64,000 nt of DNA from Acarospora socialis (taxonomy: Eukaryota; Ascomycota; Lecanoromycetes; Acarosporales; Acarosporaceae): NCBI GenBank assembly GCA_025617375.2, contig JAMYGW020000010.1:186001-250000 (forward strand). Reading direction: 5' to 3'. The notes beneath the pieces are model-generated. The model ran no database searches. It saw nothing but the letters and a program-made list of their open reading frames with translations, and had not been told where the DNA came from. The position numbers and the translations under genes are program-made. This document shows, in pieces, positions 3,001 to 48,733 of this stretch (positions within the stretch are counted from its first letter, which is position 1; each line of letters opens with the position of its first letter).

Positions 3001-3261
3001 TATACACACTAAATCTTGTTTAGTTTTAGACACAAATGTCATAGTTCTAGGTCTAATATCTAGATTAGATGTGGGTATCAAACTAGTAAAAGATGAATGT
3101 GAAATAGTGGTTTTGTTGTCTCTTGCAATCCATGGTTCTTGAAGAAGAACTATGTCTGCAGTTTTTGTAGCTGAATTCAGACATGAGTACATGACATTCA
3201 TAGATCTTGCGCAGTTGTGTTGTAGAATGGTGATTTGTGATGAATTTGTTGTGTTATTCAT
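1..3261 (-). pseudogene. LINE ORF2 (endonuclease-RT-RNase H), copy 1, interrupted and cut by window start
   Basis: ORF2 begins at the ATG at 3261-3259, overlapping the ORF1 stop. The N-terminal apurinic-type endonuclease shows the LQEPW motif, GDFNAHH and the SDH box. The reverse transcriptase follows, with KAPGPDG, GIPQGSPISP and the catalytic YIDD. The RNase H begins with TDGS, and its acid residues in YDAELFG and SDNQAA lie close to the window start. The frame is interrupted by three TGA codons, near 2788, 2248 and 516, each at a Trp (TGG) position in at least one sister copy or in the family. The one near 2248 is shared by all three copies. As read here the copy would not make a full ORF2 protein. 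Confidence 0.9.
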
Positions 3262-19338: not shown

Positions 19339-20114
19339 TCTATATGGTAGCAGAACATGATGTTAACATATTTTTCAAGATAATTGCATTTCAACACAGT
19401 TTTGAAAATTTCAAAATAGTGTTAACTAATAATTGAAAACAAAACTGTTCAAATTGTCAAAATATATTGTTTTCAACATGCAATTATGATTCAACATGAT
19501 TTTATATATAAAACTATATAATATATCAATTACATGTTATAATTAACACAGTTTTAATAGTAAAATCATTTTCAAAATTTCTTATTAAGCAAAAACTTCA
19601 TATGTCTAAAATCTCACTAAAGATCTCATGTAATGAGTATCAACATCATACAAAAAATAATTTTAAAAATGAGATTTTTAGACAAAATTCATATAGAAAT
19701 CATCATATAATACACACATATGTGTCTTTAGACTTATAAATTTTTATTTTTTGAAAAAGTCACTCAATACACAATTCAAATCAACATAAAATTGTATTAA
19801 ATATAAGTTTATATACAACATAATGTCAACACTGTTTTGAGATTTTCAATTGTATGTTGACTATGTGTTAACATTATATTGTATACAATATGTCTTTATT
19901 TGAATTCAGTTTTTATGTGAATTATATATCAATATATGTGTTGATACTATTTTGAAATTATGATTTCAAATTGTGTTTTTAATTGTGTTTTCAGTTTAAA
20001 GCTGTTTTAAAAAGAACTGTGTTTTAGAACTGTTTTGAGATAAACATAGTTAGATTTTTCAAACTAGTTTCAACACATATATCAACATGCAATTGAGCTG
20101 CCATATAGTTCTCA
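19339..20114. repeat. 776-bp repeat, copy A, with imperfect terminal inverted repeats
   Basis: Direct repeat of 20632-21407. Both copies start with CTATATRGTAGCAG and end with the approximate inverse, CTGYCATATAG. The inverted similarity extends about 30 bp inward (ATGTTRAYATAT-like on both ends). No coding capacity. This fits a non-autonomous DNA element with imperfect terminal inverted repeats. A target-site duplication is not clear. Confidence 0.7.
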
Positions 20115-20631
20115 GTAGATACTGATAGATAGAATAGATTTTGACTCAAAGTAATAGTGTTAAAATCTACTGACAAATTTACTGATAAGTCTGTTGAAGA
20201 CTTCATCAGATTAATAACTCACAGTGTAATCATAAGAAAATTGTAACAAAGCAGTAATGTCATGCAAGTGAGATGAGATAGATATGAAAAAAAGTGAAAT
20301 AACATCAACAATGAATATAAAAAGTAAGACACAATGATATCATCTGATAAGATCATCATTGTTAAGTATGTTAAACAGATAAGATATAATTGATCAGATA
20401 AATAGTGAAAATAAGATCTTAATGAAATCAACAGACTATATATACAGAAGAATCTGATGATTTTAGTGAGATAGAAATTAAATTAATGATGTTGTATGAA
20501 GATGACTGATTTTGAAACACAAATCAGTGATTGTAGACTCAATGATTTAAAAAACAAGTTGATGCTATCAAATTATTAAAATCTATACAAGTTCATAAAA
20601 TATATAATTGCTAAAAAACTATCTTATAGAG
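20115..20631. other. 517-bp AT-rich segment between the two 776-bp repeats
   Basis: No gene or motif seen. It separates two direct repeats, so an LTR-pair reading with a 517-bp interior is possible, but the repeat ends look like inverted repeats rather than TG...CA LTR ends. Confidence 0.5.
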
Positions 20632-21407
20632 TCTATATAGTAGCAGAACATGATGTTAACATATTTTTCAAGATAATTGCATTTCAACACAGTTTTGAAA
20701 ATTTCAAAACAGTGTTAACTAATAATTGAAAACAAAACTGTTCAAATTGTCAAAATATGTTGTTTTTAACATGCAATTATGATTCAACATGATTTTATAT
20801 ATAAAACTATATAATATATCAATTACATGTTATAATCAACACAGTTTTAATAGTAAAATCATTTTCAGAATTTCTTACTAAGCAAAAACTTTATATGTCT
20901 AAAATCTCACTAGAGATCTCACTTAATGAGTATTAACATTATACAAAAAATAATTTTAAAAATGAGATTTTTAGACAAAATTCATATAGAAATCATCATA
21001 TAATACACACATATGTGTCTTTAAACTTATAAATTTTTATTATTTTGAAAAAGTCTTTCAACATACAATTCAAATCAATATAAAATTGCACTTAATATAG
21101 ATTTTCTTGAATATAATGTTAACACTGTTTTAAGATTTTCAATTGTATATTGACTATGTGTTAACATTATATTGTATATAATATATGTTTATTTGAATTT
21201 AGTTTTTATATGAATTATATATTGACATATGTGTTGACACTATTTTGAAATTATAATTTTAAATTGAGTTTTTAATTGTATTTTCAGTCTGAAGTCATTT
21301 TAAAATGAACTGTGTTTTAGAACTGTTTTGAGATAAACATAGTTAGATTTTTCAAACTAATCTCAACACATATATCAACATGCAATTGAGCTGTCATATA
21401 GTTCTCA
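20632..21407. repeat. 776-bp repeat, copy B, with imperfect terminal inverted repeats
   Basis: Second copy of the repeat at 19339-20114, same length and orientation, differing by scattered mostly C/T and G/A changes. Ends and interpretation as for copy A. Confidence 0.7.
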
Positions 21408-22073
21408 TAAGATATCTATGAAAAAACTCTGCATATATGTTTCTCATGAGTGTTTTTCATATCTAGCAATTTGTTCATTAAGCTCATAACAACAGCAAGA
21501 TTGCTAAGTAAGTCAGTGAGTCATGTTTGAAGATCAAAAGACCAAATCATGACTCTCTATTCATAATAACTAACTAGAAAAAAGAATATAAAAAGAGATC
21601 AAAACAACTAGAAAATGAAAGAGATAAGTTTTAAACAACAAGATAAGTCTGTAATATCTGTCTTTTAACTTGCTGATATAGAAAGATTAAAATTGTAAGT
21701 CTCAATATCTATTATCAAGAATAATTTACTAAAATAGATTTATAACAGTGTGAAATATGACAATACACAGATTATTTGATGATAAAACAACACAATATAT
21801 ATTTATTGATGTTAAGACTAATTTCTGAAGAATCTTCTGTGCAGAGAAGTTTTATACTTTTAGACTTTCACTTAGCTGTGCTTACTAACTGTCTATGTGG
21901 TGACTGCACTAGGTGTATTGTTTGTAATGCCCTGACCATATTACAACATCAGCATCAGAGTAAAGACTAAATGAATAAATAAAATACAACATCAGTATCT
22001 TGATTATGCTTAACAACAAAACATTGCAAAGCTTGCATTAGCCTCATATTCTTCCGAAAGGGTATCAGTTCAG
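21408..22073. other. Edge of AT-rich region before gene island A
   Basis: AT-rich DNA grading at about 21990-22040 into the higher-GC gene island. The stretch 21840-21985 is less mutated and ends in AATGAATAAATAAAAT, similar in style to the LINE 3' end, so it may be the tail of another LINE. No gene seen. Confidence 0.4.
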
Positions 22074-26735: not shown

Positions 26736-27011
26736 CTTTTTATTGTTGTCAGCGATGGAGGTTTCCTTACGTTAGGATACAGGCATCAGCATGGCGTTCA
26801 GTACTGTGGACTATAGGTTTAAAGGGTAGCTATAAAAGAACTTATGCAGCTTCATATCTCTATAGTTCAGAGTATAGCCCGTGAGTGACTTTAAGCAACA
26901 TACCACGGTTGCGAATGGCTACCTTGTTGTGTAGAGGTTGTTTTATCTCACAACATACAATCTGTGACTGGCACCGATGGTCCTGCGAGCTCCGAATGTA
27001 TTGCGTGTTTA
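26736..27011. other. Intergenic tail of TRS85 up to the inverted repeat
   Basis: Normal-composition DNA with no gene, holding the presumed TRS85 3' end. It runs up to the inverted repeat at 27012, beyond which the DNA turns AT-rich. Confidence 0.5.
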
Positions 27012-27039
27012 CGGTGGACAATAACTAGGTTACCGACAC
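27012..27039 (+). repeat. Left 28-bp terminal inverted repeat of the AT-rich block
   Basis: Starts CGGTGGACAATAACTAGG and is preceded by TA (27010-27011). It matches the reverse complement of 48610-48637 with one mismatch in 28. TA next to the outer end on both sides fits the target duplication of Tc1/mariner/pogo-type DNA transposons. It lies exactly where the gene island turns AT-rich. Confidence 0.8.
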
Positions 27040-27242
27040 TACAGGCAACTAAGACTGACTTATGGACAATCAAAAATTAAAATAAGTGACAACTTCAATA
27101 TCTAGAAAGATGCAGTGGCCACTTGAAGCTGAATGAGAGATCAGTGCAACAATGTCTAATCTTATCTCACTAGTCATTGACAATTTTCATATTCAATGCA
27201 GCATCAACAAAATAAGTGTCATCAGTTTGACTTCTCTTCATG

Positions 27243-30200
27243 TTGTACAAAATAAGTATATTAAAAATTGTAGCTTCTTTCTCATACAACTCATTCAGAT
27301 CACTATACTCTAATAAATCAACATTCTGTCTTTAATTCTTAACTCTGTAAAAATTCTACAATAAACACTTCTCTATATGATATCTGAATAGTAGAAAGTC
27401 TTTTTATTTAGTTAAGATAAATAAATTATAAAAGTAAATAAGATCAGTGAATTAATTAACATTATACAACAGAAATGAATTGTCAGCAGAAGAATCATGT
27501 GACTACTGTGTAAGAACAACTCAGAAAATATATGTAAAGTGTTAACAGTTGAAGAGATAATTTCAGAAAATCTGTGAAAATTGTAAGAGAAATGATCATA
27601 GTGTTAAGTACATCATATAAATAAAAATACAGATAATATATCATCATCAGAAGTAGAAAAGATGATAAAGACTACTAAATTTAATTGCAAGATCAAAACT
27701 TCAGCAGTATATAACAAATAAATTACTATTTTTTTTGCATTTTTAAAATCTAAGTGTCTCATACAACAAAAACACTCTATTGTAAATTTTCAAAGTTCTT
27801 ATATACTTTATTGCAAAGCTTCAAGATACTATATATTGAATATTGTACTCTATAGAACTTAATTAAGAAATATTTTAGTTTAGTGTAGCTGACAATCTTG
27901 TATGATGTGCAAAAGATAAAAAATCTGCTGATGATAAATCTAAATTTGAATTTAGATCTGAATCAGAATTGTGAGATTTCATTGATGTACATAAAGACTA
28001 TATGAAAGTAATCAATATATATTATTAATGCAGTATTGTACAACTTACTGCAGCTGTCTCAGTCTTGACAGAAGATGAATTTATATTTAGCTTAATTTTT
28101 AGCTTGTTTTTTCTCTTAATTTTCTTAATGAATAATTTGAACAATCTTTTCTTCTTAATAGTTTCTTTCTTTATAGACTTCACATTGTACAACACAATGA
28201 TCTTCTTTTTGACTATTAAAAACATTAAATAGTCACTGAATATGAACTTAAAGTAAGTCAATAAATTCAGAGTTGTTGTGACATTCTCTGCACTATATTC
28301 AAGATAAATTGAATCTTCTTTGCTTCAGTTATTTGCAAGTGTGAGAAATATAACTTTTCATACAATATAATTTTATCAATGCATGTCAGATACAAGATTT
28401 ATGCAAATAAAGATCTTAAAATTGTCAAAGATATGATTATAAAGTTGAATACTGCATCTTTCTAAAAACAAGTACATGTAAACTGTTGTATGATCAAGAC
28501 TGAATGCAAAAAACAATAAATAAAACATTTCATATCAATATTTTCACATTCTACATACTTCTTGATCTTATGAAATCTATTATGATCACTTTTATAAATA
28601 TAAGTCTCTTGATATAGAGTCACTATCATACAATGCACTTTAAACACAACAATATCAATAGCAACAGTACTGCATAAGTCTAAAAAACTAATGTCTGCAT
28701 GTGAATATGAACAAGAAGTATTACAAATTTGTGTATTAGCTGTTTGTCATGCAGTTTCTGCTGTAATAGAAATGTGTGATAGTATTAATGATGTTGTTGT
28801 ATGATGTAATGAGATTGAAATAATATTGAGATCAATGATTACTTGTTGACTAAAAGTGTTTAAATTTTTGACATCACATCAACTGCAGTACTGCTTGATT
28901 TTTCATTCTGTATATGATTTATTTGAGCTTTAACATTATTCAGTGAATGTGAATTCAGATATTTTGATGTTATACAACACATGTACTTTGAAAGAAAGTT
29001 ACATAAAAGATATTTTAGTCAGATAAGTTCTTCTCAAGATTTTCTGACTGTATATTAAGATTTGATTTTTCTTTAAGAATGTTTATCTTATCATTATTTT
29101 GTATAATCTCTATATCTTGTTTCTGATCTATTAACTGAGCATTAAACTCATTTTTTACAGTCTGTTCAATTTTGATTAGAAACATTTTTCTGCATAATTT
29201 AATTAATTTAATCAGAATTAACACTAATTCTGATTGAATATGTTGTTGTATAATTGTGTGTAACTAAACATAAATCTCACAATAAGATCATAATTCATCT
29301 GCAAAAGTATTCTCTGCATAAATATCTAAAAGTTTTATACTCAAATTCTGCAGCTGTTCTGCACATTAATTAAGAATGATAGATGAAAGATATTCATCAA
29401 TATTTATAAATTAGTGTGTTATATGATACTAATAGATTAAGAATACATATCTCAACTTATATATGATGTCTGTAATTGATCAATGAAATTTATATTCACT
29501 GATATGTCATAATTCTTTGCTGCAACTGTTTCTGAATAATTATATAGCATATAAAGCTGATCAGTCACAATATTGAGATGATTGAATTGCATTGTACAAT
29601 GTGATTATTTCACAGTTGTGCAAATTCATAGATCTCTCATTACACAACTAACATATATATAGTCAGCATGATAATACAATCATCAGAAAATAAATGATTG
29701 TAAAATTTTTCTTTTGTGAGATAATGAAAGTAATTTTAAATATATTAGCATTGTATGAGCAATATCAAATGAAAAAATACTTACATGTCAGCAAAAGATC
29801 TGACTTTTTGTCAGTTGAGATCATCAAGTCTTGATGTGTTGATTTGCAGTGCTTGTATCATAGTAGTAACAGTCAGTCAAATCAATGTCTGACTGTGTTA
29901 TACAACACAGTGTTGTGTGCATCTCAGTATACAATGTTGTTTTCTTTTCACAATCAAATCATAAAATCTATGAAAGAAATTCAACTGTCTTAACTGTCTT
30001 CAGATACTAACATGCAACATTGACTTTTGTATAATTTGAGATGTCAACATAGATTTATAAAATATAACACAAAAATGCATCTATTTCAGCATAGATCTGA
30101 AAATTTCACATGCTCAACTTATTGTAATCATCAATTGATCAGATATAGTTGAAGTCTGAAATGATGTTGCAAATTATTTATATGATGTTGATGTTTTTCT

Positions 30201-33200
30201 GAGTTAAGCTCTTTGATTATGACAAAGAAACAATCTCTGTTACTATATTAGTTACTAGAAACAAATATATGTATATTGTATGACTTAAATATAGTATCTG
30301 ATAACAAGATGCTCTTTTGTATGAAAGTAAATATATAACATACTTTTTTCATAGTCATCAATAATCTCTGTATTTAATTCTTTAAGAACTATTTTTTTAA
30401 GATTTTCATTTGTCTCTGTCTGATTAAAAATAAAGACTCTTTGAATTAGTTTCAGTCTTTTGTGTAGTCATATGAGATCTATAGATTTTAAACTATACTT
30501 TTTTTGTCTCACAATATGTAGAATAGTTTTGTCATTAACACAAGAGTTAAAGAAAAAAAAAGTCACATGAAGAACAAGTTGAGAAAAGTCATCTGTCTTG
30601 ATTTTTTTAAATATCTGTTAATCTTTGAGTTATTGCTGAATTGTACAATCATTACACACAATATTGTGATATTTCACAAGTAGCTGAGATATTTTCTGTG
30701 TGATGCAATTTTTCTGAAAGTGCTCAATAATTTAGTTTTTATGAGAAGTAAGATCAATAGTATGTCTATCATTTTTCATCTTATTATCTTTGTATGACAG
30801 TACTGAATTATTGAATATAATGAATAATAATAAGTTGTGTGTGTGCATATATTAATGCAAGTTCATAAGCAACAGTTCAACATAAAATATAAAATTCTTA
30901 CTACAGACTCAGATTTTTCAAACTCTTACATCATACAACATACATTCATTACTAAGATATGCTCAGTGAAACTGTGTTGTACAATATCATTCACTTATAA
31001 AAACTATATATATTAATATATATCATACAATTCACATCAACAGATTTAGTGATGTAAGCAGTAACACATAAATCATGTAGTACTACATCTTTTAAAATTT
31101 GAGTTCAAATCTCAGCTGAATCATTCAAGAATATTGCATGCAAGTTTTACAAATGTAAAACATGCTCTTGATGTTCTTGAATTATCATTTTGTTGTACAT
31201 TACAAAATTCAGATAATTTTTCTTAATTGTCTGTAAGTCAGTCTTAGTTGTCTGTAGACACATCAAATTTTTTTCAAATTTTTGTAAACACATAAACATA
31301 GATTGTAGTAAAGAAATGATGATCTGTAAGTAAGTAATTAATATCATCATCATTGTATGAATGAATCAATCATTTACAAAAATGTTCACTTCTATCTCAG
31401 TAATCAATGATATAGTGTAGATATAGAACAACAAAGTAAATACTTTTCAATATAGAGATTGATTTGAGAAATCAATTATACAAAAATATATGACAATAAA
31501 TTCTAATTTGACATCACTTAAATGCAGATTCTGAAGAAGTAAGAAAATAAAAAGAAAATAAAACTATAACTGAAGAAGAATTAGATGATGATCTTAATAT
31601 TATAACAAATTTTTTATATTAAAGCTGTTATCATATAGTTCTGATTTATACAATCTACAGTAATATACTATATTAAACACTACTGACATCTTTTTAGTGA
31701 GAAAGAAAACAAGAAGAAATGTAATTTTTTAAATTATAATAGATCATTAAGTTAGTTCATAGATTCTACAAGCTGTACAGTTTTATTAAATGAATAATAA
31801 TGAAGTTCTTTGTACAACTGACACTCTGCTTTTTATTTAACTTTATTTTTACTTTTACTTTTAAATTCATTACTATCACAGTCTCAATCACAATCATCAT
31901 GTAAGTACACAGAAATAATTTTGATACATTGATGTTAACAGATTATACAATATAGAGTTTTTATTATATACAATGCAGTCATTACTGTTGCTGTTGTTCA
32001 GCAGAATCTTATTTTCTTAGTAAAACAGCAACAGTTCATCTTCTTTGTTTACAGTTCACAAAATAAAAGACTTCTGACTCTTTTTGAGCAATCTGTAAAG
32101 TTTGTATAAAATGTAATTATTTTACAGCAGATTTCAACACACTGTTTTTTGTACATTAATGATATTTTTATTCAGTTTTGTGAAAGAATTAAACAAATAT
32201 GCATGCAGTGCATGTCAATTTTAAGACTCTTTTCAGAATATTGTTATATTGCAGAGCATTTTGATGAAATATATGAAAACTACAAATAACATAATCATAC
32301 AGTTCACTGCTTCATACAAAATGACAATGAAAGTGTTGTTGATAAAAATGATAATAATATTGTGATAGTTAAAGAGCATCACTTAAGTTTAAATTCTGAG
32401 TCTGCTGAGTGTAAAGATAAATCATCATTGAAAAATGTTATTGTGTTGTGATAAATACATACAAATTTTTTTAATCTTCTTGTTGATTTTTGTTCTTTAT
32501 TTCTCATCTAATTATATGAGTTATTATGACATCTGAATAAGACTTGCACTTCTTTGCAGTGCTCAAAACTAATAATCATATCAATAATGAAATCAAGCAA
32601 GTCAGTAAATTAGATTTATAATCAATATAATTGTATTTAATTTGTACAATACTGTAGTTCATTAATATTATAAAAAATCTGCAGTCTCATCAGAAAAAGA
32701 ATCAAGCAAAAGTTTGTTAATTCATGAAAACTGTAATAGTCACTCATTTCTCAGTGAAACTGATGAAAAGAATCAGCTTGAAGAAGACTGTACAAAATGT
32801 ATAAACTTAAAGATAATATAATATTAATCAGAAAGAGAAGTTCAGAAAATGAAATCAAGTCATTGAATTACTTTTCAAAAAAGTTTTTTAACTTCATTAA
32901 AAACTGAGAAAGACTGAAAGTTCAGAATTGATTCAGTTTTGTATGAAATACATTGATTACAATTACTTTGTTCACAAGATCAAGATTCTCTGTCAACTAC
33001 TTGTGTAATAAGAGAGCAGAAACTTCACAATATATATTGTTGACATATGAAATCAAAAAGAATTTGCAACTGTTTATTATTCAGAAAGAAAGAAAAAGAA
33101 ACTTTATATAACTTCTATTTATCAAAGAACTGATTTATGAAACTGTTAAATGAATTGTGTATGACAGTTATTTAAGTCAATTTCAGTTTATAATCAGTGT

Positions 33201-35555
33201 TCTCTATGACTAAAAGTGAGATCATTCATTTTATGTCTTATTCACTTAACTTTTGCATCTAATCTACTTTCATACAAAGAACATTATGAGCTTAAATTTT
33301 CATTCTTATAAGATTTTCTAAGATATGAACAGAAGAGAAGTTCTGTGTAGCATAGCTAGTTCAGTGTAAGAATAATAATAATAATAATAATATTATAGAA
33401 AGAAAATCAATTTTCTTGCTTATGTGAGAATATACATGATTTTAATCACACAAGTTTCAATTTTTTACTTATGTAATAATATACACAGTTACAATTACAC
33501 AAATTTTAATTTCTAAATCATACAAATAAAGTTCATTATTCATAATATCAGTACAAGCTGTGAATCTTGACTTCTGTAAAGACTATGTCATATAGTTATT
33601 TTAAGAAAATTACTTCAGTCAAGATATTAGCAGAAAACTTCAAGATAAGTTGAACATTACTTGCAGTTATTGTATGATTGAGTAAAGATTGCAAGAATGA
33701 CAAATTTCAAAGAAAATCAAAATCATTGACACTTCTGAACTACAAATCAAGATTGTTGTTTTGTTTTATGAAGTATATCTCAATAATGTTTAAATACTAC
33801 ATGTATTGCAGAAAAAAGAACATGAAATTGAATTGCATGAAATTGTACAATTATGAAAAGAAATAAAAATGATTCATTGACATTCTCTGTTTAACATTGA
33901 AGAAATAAAAGAAGAGATGACACAGTTTATATTAAAAAAGTTAAATACTGATGTTATTGATGAATATAAATGAAAATTGCTTTATATTCACTTTCATACA
34001 AAAGAATTCAACATCTATCAGTATATCATTCTGATTCTATTTCTGATCACTTTCTGACATGCTATATTAAAGATTGTTTATTTAATATGATTAAACATTT
34101 AAATTTTCAAGATCACATTTGTTGTATGAAAGATCTTCAATGTTAATATGAAGAATATATTGTGTCAAAACTCAATTATCTATAATCTATTAATGATCAT
34201 GACAAACTATTCTGTTGAGACATTGAGATTTATGTTGAAATTAATGTTTATTTCAGATACTTATTATAAATTTATATTGATGTATTAAATTATACAACAG
34301 TCAATATACTCTGTCAGTATCTGAATGTTGTTTGTAATCTGAAAGCACATTCTCAAATTCTATGCAATCTGAAAGCATATTCTCAAATTTTGTACTCTAA
34401 TTAAGACAAGAAAATATTATTATGTGTGAAAGTTCATCATGCACTGAGTTATATAACTGCAAATAAACATATACAACTGTCAAAGATTTATTTCTTTGAC
34501 ATCAGCACTGTAAATCAACAAATTGAAGCTTGATGAAGTTAGTTGATCAAAAGTTAACTGTTTTGATGATGAATAAATTATTTTTATATTGATATTACTT
34601 CATACAATTTACTAAGTAACTTGTACAAACATTTTTCAAAGATCTTATGCAGCAAAATCTTAAAATAATATCAGTCTTGCAGACTGCATCACATTAATAA
34701 CACTGTATATGTTCATCATTTAATGAGAACTTTATAACTATGTAAAATTATAAGACATTTATCTCATACAAAAGCAAGTCAATTGATCAAATTCAATAGT
34801 GAATAGTTCATAAATATTATATCATTGTTCAGAAATTATCAATGCTGAGAATTATGTGTTGAGAGTGAATGAAGAAGTGATGATGATTATGTAAGCATTA
34901 CATAATGACTGAGATAAGTCTTCATCACAATTAATTATATGATAGATACTGACTAAAAAAATATTGATAAATATTTTTCTGTTGCAACTTTTAAGTAATT
35001 TACATCATAATTACAAGTATTGAGCATAGTTCTAAAAGATATAAAGCAGAAAATGTTCTTGCTGATGATTCATAATATTATGTTGAGATGTATAAACAAT
35101 TATGTACTATTATACAATTATATATTATCTTCAAAATACATTCATATCAGCAACAGAATCTGCTAAATCTTATAAAGATTATGTATATCAAAACAGAGAG
35201 TTAATTGAATATAATAAACATTATGAGTTAAGCAAGAATTTTGTATGAAACAGTGATGAAGTAAGTTTTGTTAGAAATGAAATATTCACTGATGTTAACT
35301 CAGAAAACATGTTGAATGTTTATTTTTAGAAATTGTGATTTTCTTACTTACAAATCTTCTTTCTTTTTAGATAATTCAGATTGTACAAAATGATTTCTTC
35401 ATCATCATAAAATTCATGTTACATTCTTAAAGATGTTGTGCATTCTACTGAATATTTCTTTGCTTAATACAAATACTGTTTTTATGATTGTGATGCTATT
35501 AATTTTCATTTTTCTATCATCATTGATTTGAATGTTTTTTCTCTCAGTTATACAA
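27243..35555. repeat. Quasi-periodic TYRTAYRA octamer array, left part
   Basis: No gene is supported in this 8.3-kb AT-rich stretch. Instead, octamers of the form TYRTAYRA recur every 123-173 bp, for example at 27243, 27462, 27613, 27759, 27898, 28036, 28185, 28358, 28486, 28626, 28797, 28969, 29099, 29246, 29419, 29592, 29751, 29898, 30027, 30178, 30317, 30468, 30641, 30789, 30931, 31353, 31476, 31646, 31809, 31943, 32102, 32312, 32642, 32939, 33670, 33843, 33994, 34122, 34290, 34449, 34600, 34764, 34935, 35110, 35241, 35381 and 35548. The commonest forms are TTGTATGA, its complement TCATACAA, and TTGTACAA. The DNA between them shows no mutual similarity by eye. Confidence 0.7.
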
Positions 35556-35629
35556 TTCAAAATTTTCTCTTCAGACATGAAAAAGATGTTTAATAAGTTG
35601 CAAATCACTGTGCACTTCAAGTAACTTAT

Positions 35630-35947
35630 TGTTACAGCCATACCCTAGAAAGAAACAGTGGGATGAGGGATACATCTGAGGTAGTGTAATCTCAAGCATG
35701 AAATGACAAAACACCAAGCATTTTCTTGTGAACATATGCCTGAGAGCACATCAGAACACTGAAATGCTGAGTGTGTCAGTGTGCTCAATTCTATATAGTA
35801 GAATTGATTCTCTTATGAAATCAATCATGTTCAACTCATCTAGTTATGCAATAGAAAGCTACTGTTTATCTAGAATCTTTGAATCTTTATATCATGAAGC
35901 ACAAAATCTTAGTTCTATAACTGAGGAATCTCAGTTGAAACATAACA
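35630..35947 (+). repeat. 5' LTR of the Ty3 fossil
   Basis: 318 bp, TGTTACAG...CATAACA, paired with 41350-41667. It is preceded by the target duplication CTTAT. Confidence 0.92.
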
Positions 35948-38900
35948 CTTTGAACACTCTCACAATATAAAGAATGTCATTCAAAGAATCAATCTCAGAC
36001 AGTGTGTCACAGAGCACTGAATCAACAAAGATAGTCAACATCAATCACAAAGTATTCAAAGTCAAGACTTCAGAGAACTTTACAGAAGATCAACAAAATC
36101 TGAGACAATTTCTTGCTCAAATCAACCTGTATGTTGACTTCAATCAGAAGAAATTTGAAAGTGATGTCAACAGAGTCTTGTTTGCAACATTCTACATGAA
36201 GAACACAACATTTGATTGAATTAAATCACAGCTCAACAAGTTCATGATCAAGAGCATCCTCAATCAAGAATGAAATACATCTTGCATAGAGAACTGAATG
36301 CAGTTCAAAGAAGAGCTAAGAAGAACCTTTAAGATAGTTAATGAGAAATGTGCAGCAGAATGAAAGATTCACACATTATGACAAGAAGAATTTGCAGTCA
36401 AGTATGCAGCAGAGTTTCAATGAATTGTGGTGCTTACACAATGAAACTCAAATCAATTAGCATCAACTTACTATTGAGGCTTGAAGAAGTCTATCAAGAA
36501 CAAAATTGCACAAAGTGACAGATCAGATGATCTGCAAGAACTTATTAACAAGACAATCATGATAGATGATCATCAATGGGAGCAACAGATGAAAAAAAGA
36601 GACTATTGACATCAGAGATGAATGAATTGAGCTGATAGAAGTAATCAAAGATGACATTACTCAAACTTCATGAATCTCAACACAATGAAGCAAGATCAAC
36701 CTTCAACATGAAGGTCAGAAGAAGCACTGCAAGAAAAGAAATGATTTTTAAGAGAAAAGTCTTCAAACTACTGAGAAATGTGAAAGTACTACAACTGTAA
36801 TATTACTGAACACCTTGCACAGAATTGCAAGAAACCCAGAAAAGAAAGAAAGAAAGCTGTGATTGTAACTAAGAAAGTAGTGCACAATGATCTCAGTTGA
36901 ATGACTTGCTATGATGACATGTGTTGAACTCACATGAGCAGCAAGAACAAAGTCAGATATTATTCAAAGAAGTCATGTCAGAAACAAGAAACTTACAATA
37001 TCACAGAACAGTCTAGATCAGACAACACTGTGAAAAAAGAACTATGTGTTCTAGAGATCAAGATCAAAGAAGTTGATACTCAAGATATTCAGATAGAAGA
37101 AAACTACAGTGATAGCATCTGAATTGTCTTGAATTTGAATGCAGATCAAGAAGAAGTTGATCAATGAAAAGTCAACATGAGACTGAAGACAGCATACCAG
37201 CACTCTGAGAATCAACAAAGAGCATTGAAAGAAGAAAAGCTTCAGTTCAAGAAAAAGAAACTTGAACAAGAGATGCAAGCTTGAAAACAGGAAGCACAAC
37301 ACAAGAGTGTGAAAGAACAAAAGACATGTGATCAGTTAGAAGAGCTGATGATAGCTGTTAAAGACAAATGTCTCAACAGTGACAACACAACATTGCTGAA
37401 ATTTCTTATATGAAAAACAAAGAGTCACAAAGTTGAGATACACTTACCTGAAGAATATATCATGCAGAATGAAGACAGATGAATCTTCAGTGAAGAATAT
37501 ATATCATCTGAATTTCTGCAAAGAATAAGAGTCTTTGAGAGTCAATTGCAGATGAAATATAATCAGTATGAATTCTGACTACACCTGAAAAGATGCATTG
37601 AGCAACACAGTCTAGAGTATGCAAATCTTATGATTGAAAGAAAACCCAGATGGTTTCAGAAACTTTGAAGATGAGCTGAATGATCAGATGAGTCAAAAAA
37701 TGAAGAGCTTTCTTGATGAGACTAGAGAAAAAGAAGCTAGTGGTGTCTCAAAAACAAGACAATGATCACAGAATATGAACCAAGATCATGATTAATGAAC
37801 ATCAGATCAATGCATTGATGAATTTTGGAGCAGATGATAATATTATAAATCAACAAATAGTTGACATGTTAGAATTAGTGACACAGTGAGCACACTGTTC
37901 ATTCAACATACACATGACAAATGAAATCACTGAAAAGATTAACAAAGAGATCTGTGTGAAGACCTCAATTCTTGAAAACTCACAAGAGATAACATTTGAT
38001 GTTATGAGATCAATCAGATATGATGCAGTACTAGGGATGTCCTGATTGTGTGAAAAGAATTCATGAATTGATTGAGTTACAAAAGAAATATGCACAATCA
38101 AAGACACATACAAGATTTCTGAACAGTCAGAAATGAGCTTATCAGAGCATAGGTCATGGAATCATGAGATATTGCTATTGAATGGAAAGCAACTCAAGTG
38201 AATGCCATTATACTCAATGAGCAAGAATCAACTCAAGAAAGTTAGAACTTACCTTGATGAGAATCTAAAGAGAGAATTCATCAAATCATCAAAATTGTCA
38301 GCAGAATATTCAATCTTATTCATACCAAAGAAAGATGACAGAAAACAACTATGTGTCAACTACAGACAACTCAATGAGATAACTCATCAAGATAGTTATT
38401 TTCTACCATTGATAGAAGAGTTGCAAGATCAGTTAGACAAAGTCAAGTAGTTCACAAGCTTAGATCTGAAGAACACCTACTACCAAGTCAGAATAAAAGA
38501 AGATGAAGAATGAAAAATAGCATTCTGAACAAGATACAGACATTATGAGTACATTATTATGTCATTCAAACTAAAAAATGTTCCAGTCATCTTTCAGAGA
38601 CTAATCAACAACATATTGAGAGAGTATCTCAATGATTTTGTGATCACATACCTCAATGATATCCTGATATATTCAGAAGACCTTGAAGAGCATTGAGAGC
38701 ACATGCACAAGATATTGGCAAAACTCAAAGAGAGAGCTCTGTACATGAAGAAATCAAAAAGCAGGTTTGAAATCAAGAAAGTTGAGTTTCTAGACTATGT
38801 GATTCAATCTGAACAGATCAAGAAGAATTCAAAGAAGACAGAAGCAGTCAGAAACTGACTTACATCAAAAAGAATCAAGGAAGTACAGGTCTTTCTAGGG

Positions 38901-40849
38901 TTGATGAACTATTATTGAAAGTTTGTACCAAATTATGCAAAGATTGCAAAACCACTAACACATTTAACACACAAGAGCAAAGAATGACATTGAAATAAGG
39001 AGCAGAAGGATGTGTTTCATGTATTAAAGGAAAGTTTTAGTGAAATGACACACCTGAGAATACTCAATTCAGCATGTGAAAAGACACTGAAAATCAACAC
39101 TTCAAACTTCACAGTAAACACATGCTTATACCAGATCAAGAAGAAACAGCAGAGACTCATAGCATACTGATTTAGGAAACTAACAGAATTCAAGGAAAGA
39201 TATGAGGTTCATGACAAGAAACTTCTTGCAATAGTGAAAGCACTGCAAGACTGAAGATCTTATCTTGCAGAAATCAACAAGTCAATTCAGATCTATACTG
39301 ATCACAAGAATCTGAGAAACTTCACAACAACAAAGCAACTCAATTAACAACAAGTTCATTGAGCAGAACAGTTGACAGATTATGAATTTCAAATTCATTA
39401 CAAGAAGAATAATGAAAACAGTGAAGCAGATGTCTTGAGCAGGTGACTCAATCATGAAGACATACAGATGATACACACTGAAATTCTGAGCAAAGACAAC
39501 AACAGAATTCTCATGAAGAGCTTAGCAGCAATGTACAAGATAGAGCAAGCTTTCTTAACAGACAAAGAACTCATCAGAATGTGTCACTACAGCTGAGTCA
39601 AAGAACATCTGAAAGTTAAATGCACTGAAGAGTTAGTGCAAAGAAGATGCAATATTGACAATCTTAGAAATTGAATCACCAAGATGATTGCTGTGTGTGA
39701 TTCATGTCAAAGAAATAAGATCAATTGAGAGAAACAATACAATGAAGTAACACAACTGAACACATCAAATGCACCATGAAAGTTGGTTACCATGAACTTC
39801 ATTACAAAGTTACCATCATCAAAAGACTCAGCATGAAAAATAAAATTCAACAGTATATTGACTATAGTGAACAGATTAACCAAGTACACAATGTTCATTT
39901 CATTTAAAGAAACTGTGACAGCACCAGTATTGATGTACACCATACTACAAGAATTAATCAGCAATCACAGACTATCAAAAGAGTTTATCATCAACAGAGA
40001 CAAGCTGTTTACAAGCAAGTTTTGAAAAATGCTTACAGCAGAACTCAGAATAAAACATAAGATGTCAATAGCATATTACTCACAGACAGATGAACAAAGC
40101 AAACAAATGAATCAGACAGTGAAAATGTACTTAAGACACTATGTCAACAAGAATCAGAATGACTGAGTACAGCTGTTGTCAATGACACAGTTTGTGTACA
40201 ACAACACAAGAAACAAAACCACAGAAGAAACACCTTTTTATGTGAACTATGACTACAATCTGAAGATATGACAAGATTCAAGAGAACACAGATCACAGAG
40301 TCAAAAAGCAATTCTGAATATTGCTCAAATAAAGAAACTGCATCAAGATCTGACAGAATGAATCAGACAGCAGACAGAACAAATGACAAAGATAAGATTA
40401 TTTGAGAAGAAAGAAAGAATATATCTAAGAACAAATAATATATGAACAAAAGAAAAGAGCAAGAAGCTGGGGAACAAGAGCATTGAATCATTTAAGATCA
40501 TATGAAACATCAAGGGGTTAAGCTATGAGCTAGACTTACTCAAAGAAATGAGAATACACTCAGTATTTCACACATTCATGCTACAGCCTTGCAACCAGTC
40601 CATACCACTTCAGATCACAGAAACACCTGTTGAACTCAATAAAGAATATGAAGTTGAGAACATTCTAGAAAAGAGAATGATTAGTGAGGAAACTCACTAT
40701 CTCATAAAATGAAAAGAATACAATACATTAAAGAACATCTGAGAACCCAGAGGAAACCTCAAGAACTGTGTGAGAACACTTCAATGTTTTAAAAAAAGAA
40801 GTCAAGATTAGTTCAGAAGGATGAAGACATTGTGTCAATGAGTTGTGAC

Positions 40850-41250
40850 AACAATTAAGAATTTTCATTCTCTGTTTCATCATTATCATCAGCAAGCTCT
40901 TCAGTGAGACACTTTGCTTTTGTATCAATTCAAGTTTCAGACTGTTTCAAGATTTTCTGCAATCTAGCAATTTTTGTTAAAAGTGCAGAAAGTTGCTCAT
41001 CAAGAGTCAGAAAAAGCTCATTTTCAGTTTTAGAGTGAACAGACTCAAGAAAGTCAAGAGAGAGACTGACACAGAAACAACCTCAACATACACACTCAGC
41101 ACACTTTGCAGACTTAAAGAAGTCAGACAACATCAACAGATCAAGAGACATCATGATACAAGAGAGATCAATGTCTAGACAACAATCACAGAAAACAAGT
41201 GCAGGATTTTCTTTACAGAATATGGTATCAGCAAGATGAAGTCAATTTTT
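40850..41250 (-). pseudogene. Antisense accessory ORF relic in the Ty3 fossil (Cys cluster plus coiled coil)
   Basis: Between the chromodomain and the 3' LTR, on the strand opposite to gag-pol, the DNA still reads as a small protein. It has a Cys-rich segment (KCAEC) followed by a helical, leucine-rich segment (ALLTKIARLQKILK) and an acidic end (DDNDETENE). The same gene in the same relative place and orientation occurs in the related fossil at 57520-57927. Proteins with paired Cys clusters followed by a coiled coil are common next to fungal retrotransposons, but their role is not known to me. Decayed copy. Confidence 0.6.
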
Positions 41251-41349
41251 GAATTTCAAATGCATCATCAGAATGTGATGAGCAGATGCTGATATATACT
41301 CTTGCTTAAATAGACTCTAGAGAACTAGTGCCTGAGAGAAAAGAAATGG

Positions 41350-41667
41350 TGTTACAGTCATACTCTAGAAAGAAACAGTGAGATGAGAAGTACATCTGAG
41401 ATAGTGTAATCTTGAGCATGAAATGACAGAACACCAGACATTTCCTCATGAACATGTGTCTGAAAACACATCAGAACACTGAAACACTGAATGTGTCAGT
41501 GTGCTCAATTCTATATAGTAGAATCAATTTTCTTATGAAATTGATCATGTTCAACTCATCTAGTTATGCAATAGAAAGCTACTGTTTATCTAGAATCTTT
41601 GAATCTTTATATCATGAAGCACAAAACCTTAGCTCTATAATTGAGGAATCTCAGTTGGGACATAACA
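41350..41667 (+). repeat. 3' LTR of the Ty3 fossil
   Basis: 318 bp, same ends as the 5' LTR and followed by the duplicated CTTAT at 41668-41672. Confidence 0.92.
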
Positions 41668-41719
41668 CTTATGCTGTTAAAAGTCAAAGAACTCATGCTG
41701 ATACAATAACTCTGAACAG

Positions 41720-43332
41720 TTATACAATTTCTTCATCAATAATCATCAACAGTTAAGCTTTTAAACATTACACAATCATCATTCTTGCATGACAAAAGTT
41801 CTTATAAACTTCTGATGATGAAAAGAAGTTAAGAAAGTTTAAATTATATAGTGATTTGAATTTTGATATCATTGCAATTCATGTAAACTTTTTTTAATTT
41901 AAAACTTTTGATATTGTACAGAACAACACTGTACATTTTTGTTGAACAATCATTTCATTGATGATCTGTTATCTTTCATACAAAGTAATATTCTTTCAGA
42001 TATTAAACATTCTTTAATTGTACAATATTTTCATGATCTTTTCTGTCTTACAGTTGCATAAAATATCAAGACAGATTCAGAACATATTGAAGACAAAGTA
42101 GTCATGAAGATTTTGAATGTCTTGACTTTATTGAAAGATTATTGCATTAAAACAAATTATACATACAAATTATGATTGATTGCTCTTGTAAAGAATGAGT
42201 TATATAATTTAAAGAAGATTAAAATGAAGAAAATTGATGAAAATACAAAGATAAAGATCAAAAAGAAAGAACAGAAAAAGAAGTCTTTTTAAAAAATTAA
42301 ATTGAATATTACTTAATCATTTAACTTATTATGAATAAGTCACACAATTTTATTTCTAAAATTCTACATTAATCTCTATATTAGAAAGATACATTATTTA
42401 AAGATTAATCAATAATTTTGAAAAATTTTACTGCTGTAGAATTTGATGTTTTTTCAGATGATAGTTCATTGATGCATTATATAAGAGTTGATGATCATAA
42501 AAAATGATTTGTGTATTTATATTAAGAAATATATAGAATACTTGTGTTAAAAATATACACTGTTGTCATCATTGACTGTATAGATTGATTAGTTAATCAA
42601 GTTAACTGCAGTTAACTTAATCTACTTGTATAATTCAGCACTTCTTGACAGCTTGTTATCTTGTTGTATTAATACATATTTATTTTTTATTTAAAATATT
42701 GATTAATGTCTAAATCATATAACTCAAATATATTTGAACTGTTTGCTTCTTCTGCTTCTTTTTCTTCTTTTTTTTTTGATTTTATTGATTTTAATATTTA
42801 CATTATGATTACATCTGATCATGTGATCATATCAGTGACAGTTGTCACAAACATTTTAAAAATTCTCAGTATAGAAATACATTTCTGTATATCATTAATA
42901 TTGTATGACTCAGATTTCAGAGAATAATACTTAAAATGAATTATTTTTTCTGCTGCATTCATCATATTTTTTTTGTTCTCTTTTTCACTAAAAAGATGTC
43001 AGTAATTTGTAATGTAATATATTACTGTAGATTGTATGAATCATAACTGTATAATAATTGCTTTAATATATGAAGTTTACTACAGCATATTGATCATTAT
43101 ATGATTTTTTTCTGATTATATTTTAATTGTCTTTTTATCTTTTCACTTCTTCAGAATCAGTGTCTGAATATTGTTGAATTGAAATTCACTATTATATATT
43201 TTTGTACAATCAGTTTTTCAAATCAGTCTCTATACTGAAAAGTATCTACTTTGTCTTTCTGTGTCTGCATCATATCATTGATGACTGAGATAAATGTGAT
43301 TATTGTTGTAGCTGATTGAGTAGTTCATACAA
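41720..43332. repeat. Quasi-periodic TYRTAYRA octamer array, right part
   Basis: Continuation of the left array after the Ty3 insertion. Clear sites are at 41720, 41976, 42018, 42200, 42477, 42626, 42715, 42901, 43032, 43097, 43202 and 43325. The step from the last left site (35548) to 41720, with the Ty3 element and one duplication removed, is 129 bp, within the normal range. Spacing is less even here than on the left. No gene is supported in this stretch. Confidence 0.6.
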
Positions 43333-43400
43333 TAATAATAAAAGTGATTATTTACTTACAGATCATGATTTCTCTTTTACAATCTATGTCTATATATTAT

Positions 43401-43575
43401 TATTGAAATTAGAAGACTCTTTAGAAGTTCAACTCTATTCAGTTTAGTGTTGAAATCTTTTGTGTCATGTGATATTGTTTAGTTATCATGCACAAAAGTT
43501 ATTCTTTGTGTATTCTAGTCTTCTAAATAATTAAGACATTTAATATTAAGCAATAAAAATGTTTCAATTTCAACA
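43401..43575 (+). repeat. 5' LTR of the copia fossil
   Basis: 175 bp, paired with 48380-48554; differences between the two are mostly transitions. Confidence 0.88.
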
Positions 43576-46500
43576 AATTATAAGTCTGACTTTTCATCTT
43601 ATCTAGAATGTTTTCTTATCTTCAATTAATCTTGCTGTTGTTGTTTTGACAGCATCTTTTCTCATTTCAATAATCTACACATTTTGATGTTCATTCTGCA
43701 GAAACAACTCACATAATTATGACTTTCTTGAATAACACTTTCAACTTTTCTCATCTTGCTGATGCTGATAATTATGTCTCATAAACTATTAATATCAAGT
43801 TTGTTCTTATGAACAAGAATCTATAAACTGTTGTTTTTAACACTTTCTTTAAACTCATCATTGCATCTGAAGTGATTAACAATCAGAACTTAAAGTTCTC
43901 ACTGAAATATATCATTTGAAGTAAAAAAAACAACAAAACATGTACTATTATAGTTCTTTCTTGTCAGAACAGCTCTAAAAACTTTATTCAAGATCTATCT
44001 GTTCATCAGATGTAATTAAAACTGAAGAAGTTGTATGAAATTTAAGAATTTAATGTCAGATATCTCACATTCATTATGCTTCTCAGTCATCATTATAACA
44101 CTTTTAAGTTCATTAAAAACTATATTGATCAGCTTAAGACTTCATCACAACATTTAAAAGAAATAAATTCTATCTTTTCAAACTGAATTATACTCATGAT
44201 TCTTCTTAACAATCTAAAATCTACTTTTAATGTCTTTGTCACAACTAAACATCAATCTATTTAAGTTGTTACTTTTATCTTTGATGCTCTTGTCATCAAA
44301 CTCATTGACAAGACTAAAATGAAAAATAACAAGATCTCAGTGATCATGATCTTTTGAAACAAGAACTTGAATTTGATTTTTAAATTGAACTTCAAATTGA
44401 TGTCATTACTTCTTTGCACTCACTGCAAGAAGACTGATCATGAAAAACATAATTGCTTTTTCAAATATTCTTATAAGAAGAAAAAATTTAATGTAGTTAA
44501 GTTTGCTAAGCAAAAGAGCAAAGACAAAGTGATTAAGTTATTCACTTCATTCAAGTTTAGTGATAACAATATCACAACTCTTAACTTTATGACTCACATC
44601 AATGAGCTTCATTTTAATGTTCATGTCATCAAGTTCTGTTTTAAAGCTCATGTTTTTGAGCTTCATTTTGAAGTTTATAATGTTGTTGAACTTCAATTTC
44701 ATGTTTATATCATTGAGTTTTATATCATAAACATATAAACTGTCAACACTGTGATCTCTGATTACTTGTGCTTAACATATAAATTTTTTATCATTTATGA
44801 ATCTATCAATAGATCTTTTCTTATAGCTAATGAAGTGACTAAGATCATAAGAAAAAATTAAGTTTCTCTATATTTAGTTCATTTTGATGAAGATATACAA
44901 GAAATCATTCTCAATAATGTTATACACTCTCTTATCATCTCTGCAAATCTTATTTTCAGTACTTGTATATGAGTCAGAGATATTATGTTCAACATGAAGA
45001 ATTGCATCTTACATTATAACAACAAAATCATTGAATATACATCTGAAGTTGATGACTTATTTTAATTACAACTCAACAATACATCTCAGTCTCATGTCTT
45101 TGCAATTAATAAAGAGTTCAAGATATCTTTTAAAATGTGACATCATTGATTTGATCACTTAAATCATGCTAATATTGAATGACTGATTAAGATCATCAAT
45201 AATATTGATCTCAAGAATCTTTCTAAACATTAAAACATCTATAAATTATGCATTAAGATCAGATAGATATGTTGTTTTTACAATGCTTTCATTGAGCAAG
45301 CAACTCAATCACTAAATGTTGTTCATTCAGACATTGTTGAATCTATTACACTCATTATTTATGATAATTCAAAGTGATTTGTTATCTTCATCAACAACTT
45401 CACTAGATTTACATGAATGTTTTTCATGAAGTTCAAGACTGAAACAGTCAAGTATATTAAGAACTTCATCATTTTAATGAAGACAGATCATTTTAACTAT
45501 TCTTTAAAATATCTTTATATTGATCTTAAGTGTGAATATTTTGTTCTGAAAAACTGATTCATCATTAATGACATTACATGAAAATTTACTACATCTTACT
45601 CATCTGAAGAAAACAATGTTTCTGAGTAACTAAATTACACTATTTGTGAACTCACTAAAACTATACTTAAAGACTTTAATTTAAAGTTTTATCTCTGATC
45701 AGAAGTTATTTGAACTGTAATTTATTTAAAGAATCAGTCTTTTACTCATGCACTTAATACAACATTCTATAAAGTATGAACAGACAATGTTTCTGATCTC
45801 TCAAATTTTTGTGTCTTTGATATTATTGTTTAAACACATATTTCTAAGAAATGATGTCAGCAAGAAGTCAAATTCAATGATTACAGTCTTAAATGTCATT
45901 ATTTAGACATAAATAATAGCTCTATTTATCATGTTTGAAACTTAGAATCAGAATGTGTTCTCATTACTTATAACTGTTTTGTGAAAGAAAATATTAATAT
46001 TTATGAAAACATGATTAATCTAGAGATCTACAGCAAGAGAAAAACATTTAATACTGTCAATCTTTTTTTTAATTTCTCATTCTTATTCACATCTTTGTCA
46101 TTACAATCTTCTTTCTTTTCAGAGAAAGTTTTCAGATTAATTACATCACTATTACAATCTTTGCTGTTATAGTGTTTTCAAGATCTTCAAGATGTCAATT
46201 CAAATGATTTTCATTCATTGAACACATCTCAATTTAACATGTTCAGCACAAAAAATCAAGACTCAACATCATTCATACAGTATTCAGTCATTGAAGCTCA
46301 CTCATTTTTCTCATCAACATCATTTAACATTACAGTTGACTATTCTTTTCTTCATTTCAAATTCTCATTTTTGTTCTTTTCATCTCAGAATTCTCAACTT
46401 TTTGAATTCTTTGATGACTTTAATGCACACTTTTTGTATATATATGTCACAATCTCTCTGAGTAACATTGTCAAATCTTTTATCTATAAACAAGTCATCA

Positions 46501-48379
46501 AGTTGTCACTGTGCAAGAAGTGAAAGCAAGTGATGAAGAATGAGATACATTTTTTGAAGAAAAACAACACATAAAAAATGATTTCTGCATCATTAAGTCA
46601 GCATGTTCTTTAAGAATGCTGAGTGTATAAGATTAAGCATGATGCTCATGATTAAGTTAGTTGTTATAAGACTCACTGAGTAGTCAAGAACTACAAACAG
46701 CAATTCAGTGTCAATTATGATTAAATCTTTGCATCTGTCATCAAGTCATAAATCTACAAAGCTCTTTTCACTTTGATCACTCATTTTGATCTAAAGACTG
46801 AGCAAATAAACATGACAATCACATTTCTTTATGATTCTATTGATCAAATCATTTATATGAAGCTTTTTCATGAATATGAGCTTTCTGACATGATTGTCTT
46901 GCTTAATAAAATCTTATATGATTTAAAGCAGACATCTCATCTTTAATATAAGACTCTATGTGATCATCTTATCTCATTTAATTTTCATCATCTTAATTCT
47001 GATCATAGTGTCTTCTTTTAAATTAATGATAATGTTATCATCACTGTCTACATTGACAATTTTCTTCTTATAAAAGAGAATAAATCAGTTATTTAAGACA
47101 TCAAAATACATCTTACTAACATCTTCAAGATGTCAGATCTCAACTCTGTGTTTTATTATTTAAATATAAAGATTGAGTGCAATCATTCTGAATACATTAT
47201 TTGTCTTATTTAAACAGTTTACATTAATAAGATTCTTAAGACATTTCAACAGTTATAGACAGTTTCTATCAACATATTTATGAATTTTGATGCAGTACTC
47301 ATGAAGAAGTTTATTACTCAGACTGACATCATCACTATTTGATGCTATCAAAAGACAGTAAAATTATTAATGTACATCATGTTACAAATGTGTCCTGACA
47401 TCATCTTCACTATCTTTACTGTCAGTCAGTTCAGTTAGAATCTGAATGTCTCACATTATAATGCTGTTAAGTGAGTCTTTAAATATCTCACTGACACTAC
47501 AAACTTAAATGTCATCTATGACATCATCAACACAGATCTCATTGACTATACTGATACTGATTAAAACAAATATTGCAATACTCAGAAGTTCACTGATGCT
47601 TATTTCTTTCTTTTTTTCAGAAATTTTATTAATTGATGTTTTAAATGTTAACAGACTGTCATTTTGTTGTTCACTGAGTCTGAATACATGACTGAAATGT
47701 AAGTGATGAAGAAAGTCATATGACTTCATCATTTTCTTATGAAAATTGACTTTCTTAATAATGATAATTTTATCATTATTTGTGCTGATAATTGTGATGC
47801 TATAAATTTAGCTTGAAATTCTGAGTTTCATGTCTGCATCAAGCACATTGATATTCAGTATCACTTTGTTTGTGAGACTGTCAATTGTGATCTCATCAAT
47901 CTTGAGTTTATTTCTATGTCTGAACAAGCAGTTAATGAACTCATTAAATCTTTACTCATCATTAAGTTTCATCACTTTCTTAATCAGCTAGATCTTCTAG
48001 CTGCAACAACTTTATAAATTAAATCAATGAGACAACAACTAGTTGCAATCTGAGTAATTGACTTACTTACTCATGAAGTATGACAGATCATAGTCTACAT
48101 CATAGTAATTAAGTCAGTTTCTCAAATTGTCAACTGATTTTTTAATTGCACATTTGAGTTCTGATCTCATTGTTGCTTCATTTTTTGTGTCTTTGCTATA
48201 TCTTTTCTTTTCATCTTGTTCTTGCTTTCTCATCTTGCTGTTATCTCAATTTTTTTTATGATTTCTTTGTCATCTTGCTGTTGAGTCTATCTTTTGATAG
48301 AATTGAAGAATCTATACTGACTAGTGAATGAGTATCTAGATCATCTAGAATGTCTAGATCAATTAGATTTGAAAGAGAG

Positions 48380-48554
48380 TGTTGAAATTAGAAGGCTCTT
48401 TAGAAGTTTAACTCTATTCAGTTTAGTGTTGAAATCTTCTGTGTCATGTGATATTGCTTAGTCATCATGCACAAAAGTTATTCTTTGTGTATTCTAGTCT
48501 TCTAGATAATTAAGACATCTAATATCAAGCAATAGAAATGTTCCAATTTCAACA
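48380..48554 (+). repeat. 3' LTR of the copia fossil
   Basis: 175 bp with perfect 10-bp inverted ends. Only 55 bp separates it from the right terminal inverted repeat at 48610. Confidence 0.88.
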
Positions 48555-48609
48555 GTTGTTAATGGTGAATATTCATTAACACTTTGCGAAAATTTGAAAA
48601 AAATTTGAT

Positions 48610-48637
48610 GTGTCGGTAACCTAGTTATCGTCCACCG
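48610..48637 (-). repeat. Right 28-bp terminal inverted repeat of the AT-rich block
   Basis: Begins GTGTCGGTAACCTAG and ends CCACCG, followed by TA (48638-48639). It is the reverse complement of 27012-27039 with one mismatch. Confidence 0.8.
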
Positions 48638-48733
48638 TAGTGTTACTTGGTGACCACCACATGACTTAGTACGCATAGTCGGCTGCGAAATCTCAGATTA
48701 CTTTGGTAGTAATCTCTCAACCACGGCCTTAGC

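Follow-up and report, generated by a model that had tools for sequence, protein, structure and literature searches.

In the prevailing view, DNA transposons are recognised through their termini. In En/Spm (through TnpA) and in Ac, subterminal transposase motifs keep to the outermost few hundred bp. Arrays of a short motif are described inside the VANDAL transposons of Arabidopsis; they are bound by VANC, which removes methylation, and a marking of the element as self has been proposed. In the sections of these reports that bear on the motifs, they are 9 bp long, same-oriented and dense, lie in noncoding tandem repeats, diverge fast and arise by tandem duplication (PMC5735166, PMC10398659). The pertinent parts of the IS3EU descriptions give tips of the form TA..TA, which read TAYGG..CCRTA in rust-fungus members, and a target duplication of usually 6 bp (PMC12730594, PMC10045372). 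They also mention fungal members, including Styx of Zymoseptoria (PMC12730594, PMC10045372, PMC10853768).

Two transposon families as carriers of the array

The stretch analysed here, positions 186001-250000 of contig C10 (64,000 bp, hereafter the window), belongs to a genome of 31.1 Mb in 38 contigs. Two 2 kb pieces of an array of TYRTAYRA octamers were searched in this genome. The first was found at at least 19 other loci (40 of the 65 candidates were scored) and the second at 8 other loci that extend over 1 kb or more. Comparison of six fetched loci resolved two elements, A and B. The array is thus carried by two dispersed DNA transposons; it is not a satellite, nor is it unattributed AT-rich DNA. 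An earlier note on the window had listed an iterated palindrome of some element among its possible readings; this reading proved right, and the class of the element can now be given as IS3EU-like.

Element A measures 5490 bp from tip to tip (in copy L028) and B 4.2 kb. In the window, B is inserted in the terminal repeat of A, which is further interrupted by a ~715 bp insert, a 6.0 kb LTR retroelement and a 5.2 kb element (Table 1). Copies were aligned from 7 of at least 20 loci for A, several of them partial, and from 4 of at least 9 loci for B, and both elements are known here from decayed copies alone. The tip patterns occur at 37 (A) and 24 (B) places in the genome, against none for the reversed controls. 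As element copies or tips are scattered over many contigs, a centromeric reading of the array is without support. Behind its tips, A has an extended but imperfect inverted repeat (in L028, 613-1305 with 5458-6104, 69% over 700 bp; in L030, 74% over 489 bp), and the one behind the tips of B extends over only about 40-50 bp.

Table 1. Features of the window and of contig C10; positions refer to the window unless contig kb are given.
Feature	Position	Strand	Basis or remarks
Element A with nested inserts	27010..48639	+	TIR pattern for tips, L028 comparison for segments
Own segments of A	27010-27038, 31258-32676, 33390-35634, 41667-43406, 48555-48639		
Element B	27040..31256	- (strand of its transposase)	tips and copy comparison
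Octamer array of B	27243..31023	none	27 conserved sites, 4-copy alignment
Octamer array of A, part 1	31353..35548	none	39 conserved sites over the whole 7-copy A alignment
Octamer array of A, part 2	41667..43406	none	12 class members, 41720-43325
Decayed transposase of B	29767..30731	-	tblastn with P0013, P0008; N-terminal part about 30731-30297, integrase core about 30150-29767
Decayed transposase of A	33731..34563	+	tblastn of intact relatives
~715 bp repeat in A	32677..33389	+	ends in (AAT)n; flanked by ~9-10 bp repeated target sequence
LTR retroelement in A	35630..41670	+ (arbitrary)	321 bp terminal repeats, 90% identical
Further insert in A	43403..48554	none	173 bp direct terminal repeats, 94% identical
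LINE-like element copies	514-4847, 10319-15822, 59791-63846		long open frames
796 bp repeat, two copies	19327-20121, 20620-21414	same orientation	92%
Octamer-dense blocks of C10	contig kb 213-222, 228-230, 336-338, 344-346		
Weaker octamer blocks of C10	contig kb 192-194, 328-330		

Both elements have the tips TACGG..CCGTA (TACGGTGGAC.. in A, TACGGGCGAC.. in B), which agree with those of IS3EU; beyond the tip, their TIRs diverge, whereas the octamer is identical. Target duplications were recognised in six cases. They are exact and 6 bp long for A in L028 and A in L022/L024, 6 bp long with one mismatch for A in L030, and 5 bp long in the other three (GTGTT for window A, GACAC for window B, and B in L025). 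A and B are homologous and lie on opposite strands of the window; their DNA is about 58-68% identical along as much as 3.4 kb. The transversions between them, counted in successive 250 bp intervals, show codon phase in the best block (18/11/27, 21/12/23, then 6/22/10, 13/23/13). This bias is mainly found in the transposase stretch; a search by codon phase for a second gene yielded single intervals with p about 0.01-0.04 among 36, uncorrected.

When the frames of A and B are aligned as protein, the best block has 48% identity over 192 residues. When ten decayed copies were aligned, with stops written as X, the alignment identified one protein, P0001, among 5299 candidates (E=1.4e-28). P0001 carries PF24764, an integrase core, and its group comprises 111 listed rows including itself, 14 of which have the Clr5 domain PF14420; the relatives that bear organism names (11 rows) we take to be fungal. 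In tblastn against the window and the fetched loci, six intact relatives of P0001 matched B on the minus strand and A on the plus strand of the window. Thus, a relative of a PF24764 protein, i.e., an IS3/IS481-like integrase-type DDD/E transposase as in IS3EU, is encoded in decayed form in both elements. Pfam scans of the decayed read-through frames (six of A in L028, five of the six of B in L025) gave no domain, and a genome search for PF24764 gave no match, with the controls silent too. Among viral_contigs, 31 pattern matches to the transposase relatives were obtained, of which 0 were confirmed. A TET/JBP, kinase, GATA or DUF3577 gene was not recognised in A or B, a weak negative because of their decay. 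By their tips and transposase relatives, and less clearly by their duplications, A and B look like IS3EU elements.

Density and spacing of the octamers

The octamers lie where the earlier note had placed them, including the imperfect one at 31193 (TTGTACAT, one letter outside the class); a second site that it considered imperfect, at 27613, reads TCATATAA and is a full TYRTAYRA member. Their unusual density withstood a shuffled control: 56 are found in 27101-35640 as compared to 9.0 in 300 dinucleotide shuffles (SD 2.9, maximum 19), i.e., about six times expectation. In the same interval, they are spaced far more evenly than by chance, with a coefficient of variation of 0.34 vs. 0.97 for random placement (minimum 0.64 in 5000). 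In an unbiased 8-mer count, TTGTACAA and TTGTATGA/TCATACAA had the top scores among the 8-mers counted more than twice. Per element, with expectations from an order-1 Markov model, A has 39 octamers vs. 5.6 expected in L028 and 40 vs. 6.5 in L030, and B has 29 vs. 4.1 in L025 and 29 vs. 4.4 in the window.

The array had been given as running to 43332, but it is not continuous to that position. The earlier walk from site to site passes from B into A at 31257, and the DNA at 35.63-41.67 kb is the inserted LTR retroelement, in which octamers are at background density (2 vs. 2.0 expected). The other inserted elements of the window are not enriched either (4 vs. 3.7 in the element at 43.4-48.5 kb), with the exception of the ~715 bp insert (3 vs. 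0.43), and the CpG-free DNA at 16-22 kb of the window has 7 octamers vs. 4.9 expected. Along 264 kb of C10, dense octamers are confined to some AT-rich blocks, and most of the remaining CpG-free DNA has 0-4 per 2 kb. The ~715 bp insert is SINE-like and is found at 21 other places in the genome. Its three octamers are spaced by 165 and 166 bp; in a second copy (L034), all three are class members, one with the TTG/TCA trace discussed below. Given the three sites of this insert, the motif may occur in elements other than IS3EU as well.

Several other repeats were noted. LTR retroelement sequence of the same group as that in the window also interrupts A in L031, in L032 and at 328-346 kb of C10 (L022-L024), and the group also occurs in L026. 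With insertions in several A copies, this 6 kb group behaves as if it preferred A DNA or chromatin. Both window copies of the 796 bp repeat hold two class octamers, 57 bp apart, and this repeat is found again in L020 (215-1006, 92-97%). The LINE-like copies are, by eye, of the reverse transcriptase plus zinc-knuckle type and have a CpG o/e of about 0.02-0.3; they may be adapted to CpG-directed mutation or have escaped it recently.

The spacing of about 150 bp given in the earlier note was reproduced, with a mean of 152 bp in B (SD 15) and 149 bp in A (SD 18) when only steps of 115-190 bp are counted; steps of 10-98 bp and gaps of at least 200 bp exist as well. Of eight gaps >185 bp, two contain a one-mismatch site in their inner part. 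The bunching of the spacings by helical turns, also suggested earlier, holds for B, with a period of 11.0 bp (23 spacings, here and below those of 115-190 bp, p=0.00025 vs. jittered; unconserved site 27282 omitted, imperfect site 31193 included), but not for A (31 spacings, p=0.53); for A and B pooled, p=0.0045. The spacers are mostly without mutual homology, as had been stated, but they are parts of two homologous elements and partly code for transposase. In 552 comparisons among spacers, the 99th percentile score was 6.7 vs. 6.5 in shuffles, and a single inverted pair scored 19, above the shuffle maximum of 12. Head-to-tail homologous monomers were found neither in these comparisons nor with Tandem Repeats Finder, which gave no array matching the octamer block. 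Hence, the earlier suggestion of a satellite decayed to its core is not supported: the spacers do not align as monomers, and terminal inverted repeats, target duplications and a gene for a transposase are present in the carriers.

Ancestral form and conservation of the sites

The stretches of the window that hold genes (Trs85, poly(A)/CCA polymerase head, GH125, RING) have a GC content near 0.5 and normal CpG, whereas the repeat blocks have a GC content of 0.22-0.39 and lack CpG over long stretches. Taken with the transposase relatives, these genes indicate a fungus of the ascomycete type. This composition is the pattern expected from repeat-directed C-to-T mutation, with RIP as the putative agent. 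Copies of the elements differ almost solely by transitions. Among four copies of A, in columns where all four are present, 1009 variable columns are C/T-only or A/G-only vs. 43 others; in B, these numbers are 516 and 24. One and the same octamer site reads TTGTA, TCATA or TTATA depending on the copy, and this alternation of TTG, TCA and TTA at single sites implies the ancestral octamer TCGTACGA, in agreement with the CpG loss that the earlier note had proposed. Both TG and CA are found among copies at 33 of the 77 octamer CpGs in A and at 18 of the 54 in B; the remaining positions do not show both forms but are compatible with an ancestral CpG. The same trace is present at 99 (A) and 67 (B) places outside the octamers, so CpG loss was general and not octamer-specific. 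We regard the IS3EU-like identity of A and B, together with the ancestral motif TCGTACGA, as nearly certain. A candidate for a young copy with un-mutated TCGTACGA, the only such cluster inspected (L033, three sites in 2.9 kb), was rejected, as it has a GC content of 0.50, normal CpG and gene-like ORFs.

The positions of the sites are partly common to both families. In a block aligned between L030 (A) and L025 (B), at 61% identity, 10 of the 13 octamers of A have exactly the same place as octamers of B; in other pairs of copies, 7/12, 6/11 and 4/8 coincide, and the merged A-B alignment has 13 octamer columns common to both. Transversion-free octamers make up 15/31 in A and 14/25 in B, vs. 9.1% of background windows. 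Because an aligner may draw matching octamers together, all octamers were masked before realignment. The 27 B sites then fell on A sites exactly in 8 cases, within 3 columns in 11 and within 20 columns in 18, as compared to 0.2, 1.3 and 7.5 in shift nulls (maxima 3, 6 and 17 of 5000). The 16 B sites outside 3 columns lie 5-88 columns from A sites in the masked alignment; thus, either some sites are also lost and gained, or the alignment is at fault in these places.

Seven octamers in window B and eight in window A overlie codons of the transposase and occupy two or more reading frames. Before decay, most of them would have been read as Arg-Thr, and some as Val-Arg or in another frame. At several of them, the residue agrees with the transposase relatives; following a conserved Phe-Arg, where the octamer requires Thr, most relatives carry Gln. 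Octamers also lie outside the transposase gene. Since a constraint on the protein alone would not single out one 8-mer where synonymous codons are available, and would leave the extragenic sites unexplained, a constraint at the DNA level is implied. That masked sites coincide at only ~61% identity, and that sites lie on codons, further suggests that the motif was kept as DNA. Judged from these alignments, selection of the octamer sites as DNA across two diverged families is strongly supported, and the octamers probably constitute a selected binding-site array.

Possible readers of the array and known systems

The explanation favored here as a whole, to which we would give somewhat less than an even chance, is that a selected palindrome array was read as a self mark in IS3EU-like transposons, with anti-silencing as its likeliest use. 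As the comparison of copies shows, the living ancestors of A and B carried TCGTACGA about every 150 bp over their whole length, in noncoding as well as in transposase-coding DNA. Each palindrome would bind a putative dimeric protein serving both families, and with roughly one bound site per nucleosome the whole element would be marked as self. Possibly, the chromatin was thereby held open and the CpGs of the element were kept from silencing in a VANC-like manner, until protection failed and CpG-directed mutation converted the sites to their present TYRTAYRA forms. Several observations bear on these steps. A shared reader is favored by the octamer that A and B have in common in spite of their different TIRs; the better candidates for such a reader would be a host protein or a conserved domain distinct from the one that binds the TIRs. 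The ~150 bp spacing points to one bound site for roughly each nucleosome, although the short steps and long gaps break a strict one-per-nucleosome rule, and the C/G composition around the sites gave no clear nucleosome-typical profile. As the host attacks CpG in repeats, a shielding array would be of plausible benefit; that A and B were mutated despite their array counts against shielding. A second gene was not recognised in A or B. The anti-silencing use, proposed by analogy with VANC, is therefore put forward tentatively. More doubtful is the full combination of a palindromic address with one TCGTACGA per nucleosome, along an entire IS3EU element including its codons, and a single cross-family reader for which it would be the self mark.

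The octamers may instead be internal sites of the transposase itself, which would use them to coat the element, or to compact it so that its ends pair. If read as a pair of TACGA half-sites that face each other, the palindrome resembles the tips (TACGG) of both families placed head to head, and an N-terminal Clr5 domain recurs among intact relatives of the transposase (14 of the 111 rows). However, the TIRs differ past the tip whereas the octamer does not, and among the matches listed in literature searches there was no other transposon with transposase sites over its whole length, which makes this explanation unlikely. Still less probable is a host nucleosome-phasing factor of the general-regulatory-factor type, acting without any anti-silencing role. 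It would account for the spacing near 150 bp and for a motif common to two families and the unrelated 715 bp insert, but the genome has no excess of intact TCGTACGA (374 sites vs. 638 for the reversed control word).

The palindromes could also serve another recognition at the DNA level, either when copies pair or when a site-specific enzyme cuts or methylates the DNA. RIP pairing has been reported to use units of 11-12 bp, which the 11.0 bp quantisation in B recalls, and the palindrome contains two CpGs. As A lacks the quantisation and the scanned frames of A and B hold no enzyme domain, a weak test on decayed DNA, this is considered very improbable. A decayed satellite, or chance in AT-rich DNA, might be read from the even spacing, the one inverted spacer pair above the shuffles and a weak direct repeat in B. 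Yet the shuffles, the spacer comparisons and Tandem Repeats Finder, as well as the conservation between A and B and the background density in the LTR retroelement, refute it as the main explanation and leave it a negligible likelihood.

Among known systems, A and B resemble IS3EU/GingerRoot in their TA(C/T)GG..CC(A/G)TA tips, integrase-type transposase and fungal host and, less clearly, in target duplications of about 6 bp (5 bp in three of the six cases), but an internal palindrome array is absent from the pertinent parts of the IS3EU descriptions (PMC12730594, PMC10045372, PMC10853768). Among the matches listed in literature searches, none reported a whole-element palindrome array in a transposon. 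With En/Spm TnpA and Ac, A and B share repeated short internal motifs, but their sites span the full 4-5.5 kb. Some 30-40 copies of one palindrome tile the whole element, were retained despite divergence and were fitted onto transposase codons. Such constraint can still be read from repeat-mutated DNA because lost CpGs leave TG, CA or TA traces in different copies. The likeness to VANDAL/VANC, as far as the sections cited describe it, consists in a short motif repeated many times within a DNA transposon (PMC5735166, PMC10398659); in A and B, too, the copies are many in the element and rare elsewhere. Unlike the same-oriented, noncoding tandem repeats of VANDAL, the motif of A and B is a perfect palindrome, is set in ~150 bp steps over the whole element, codons included, between mostly non-homologous spacers, and is common to two diverged families. 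If a protein reads the array, its spacing rules can be tested, and A and B would represent a second kind of self-recognition by motif arrays, in a superfamily and a kingdom other than those of VANDAL and VANC.
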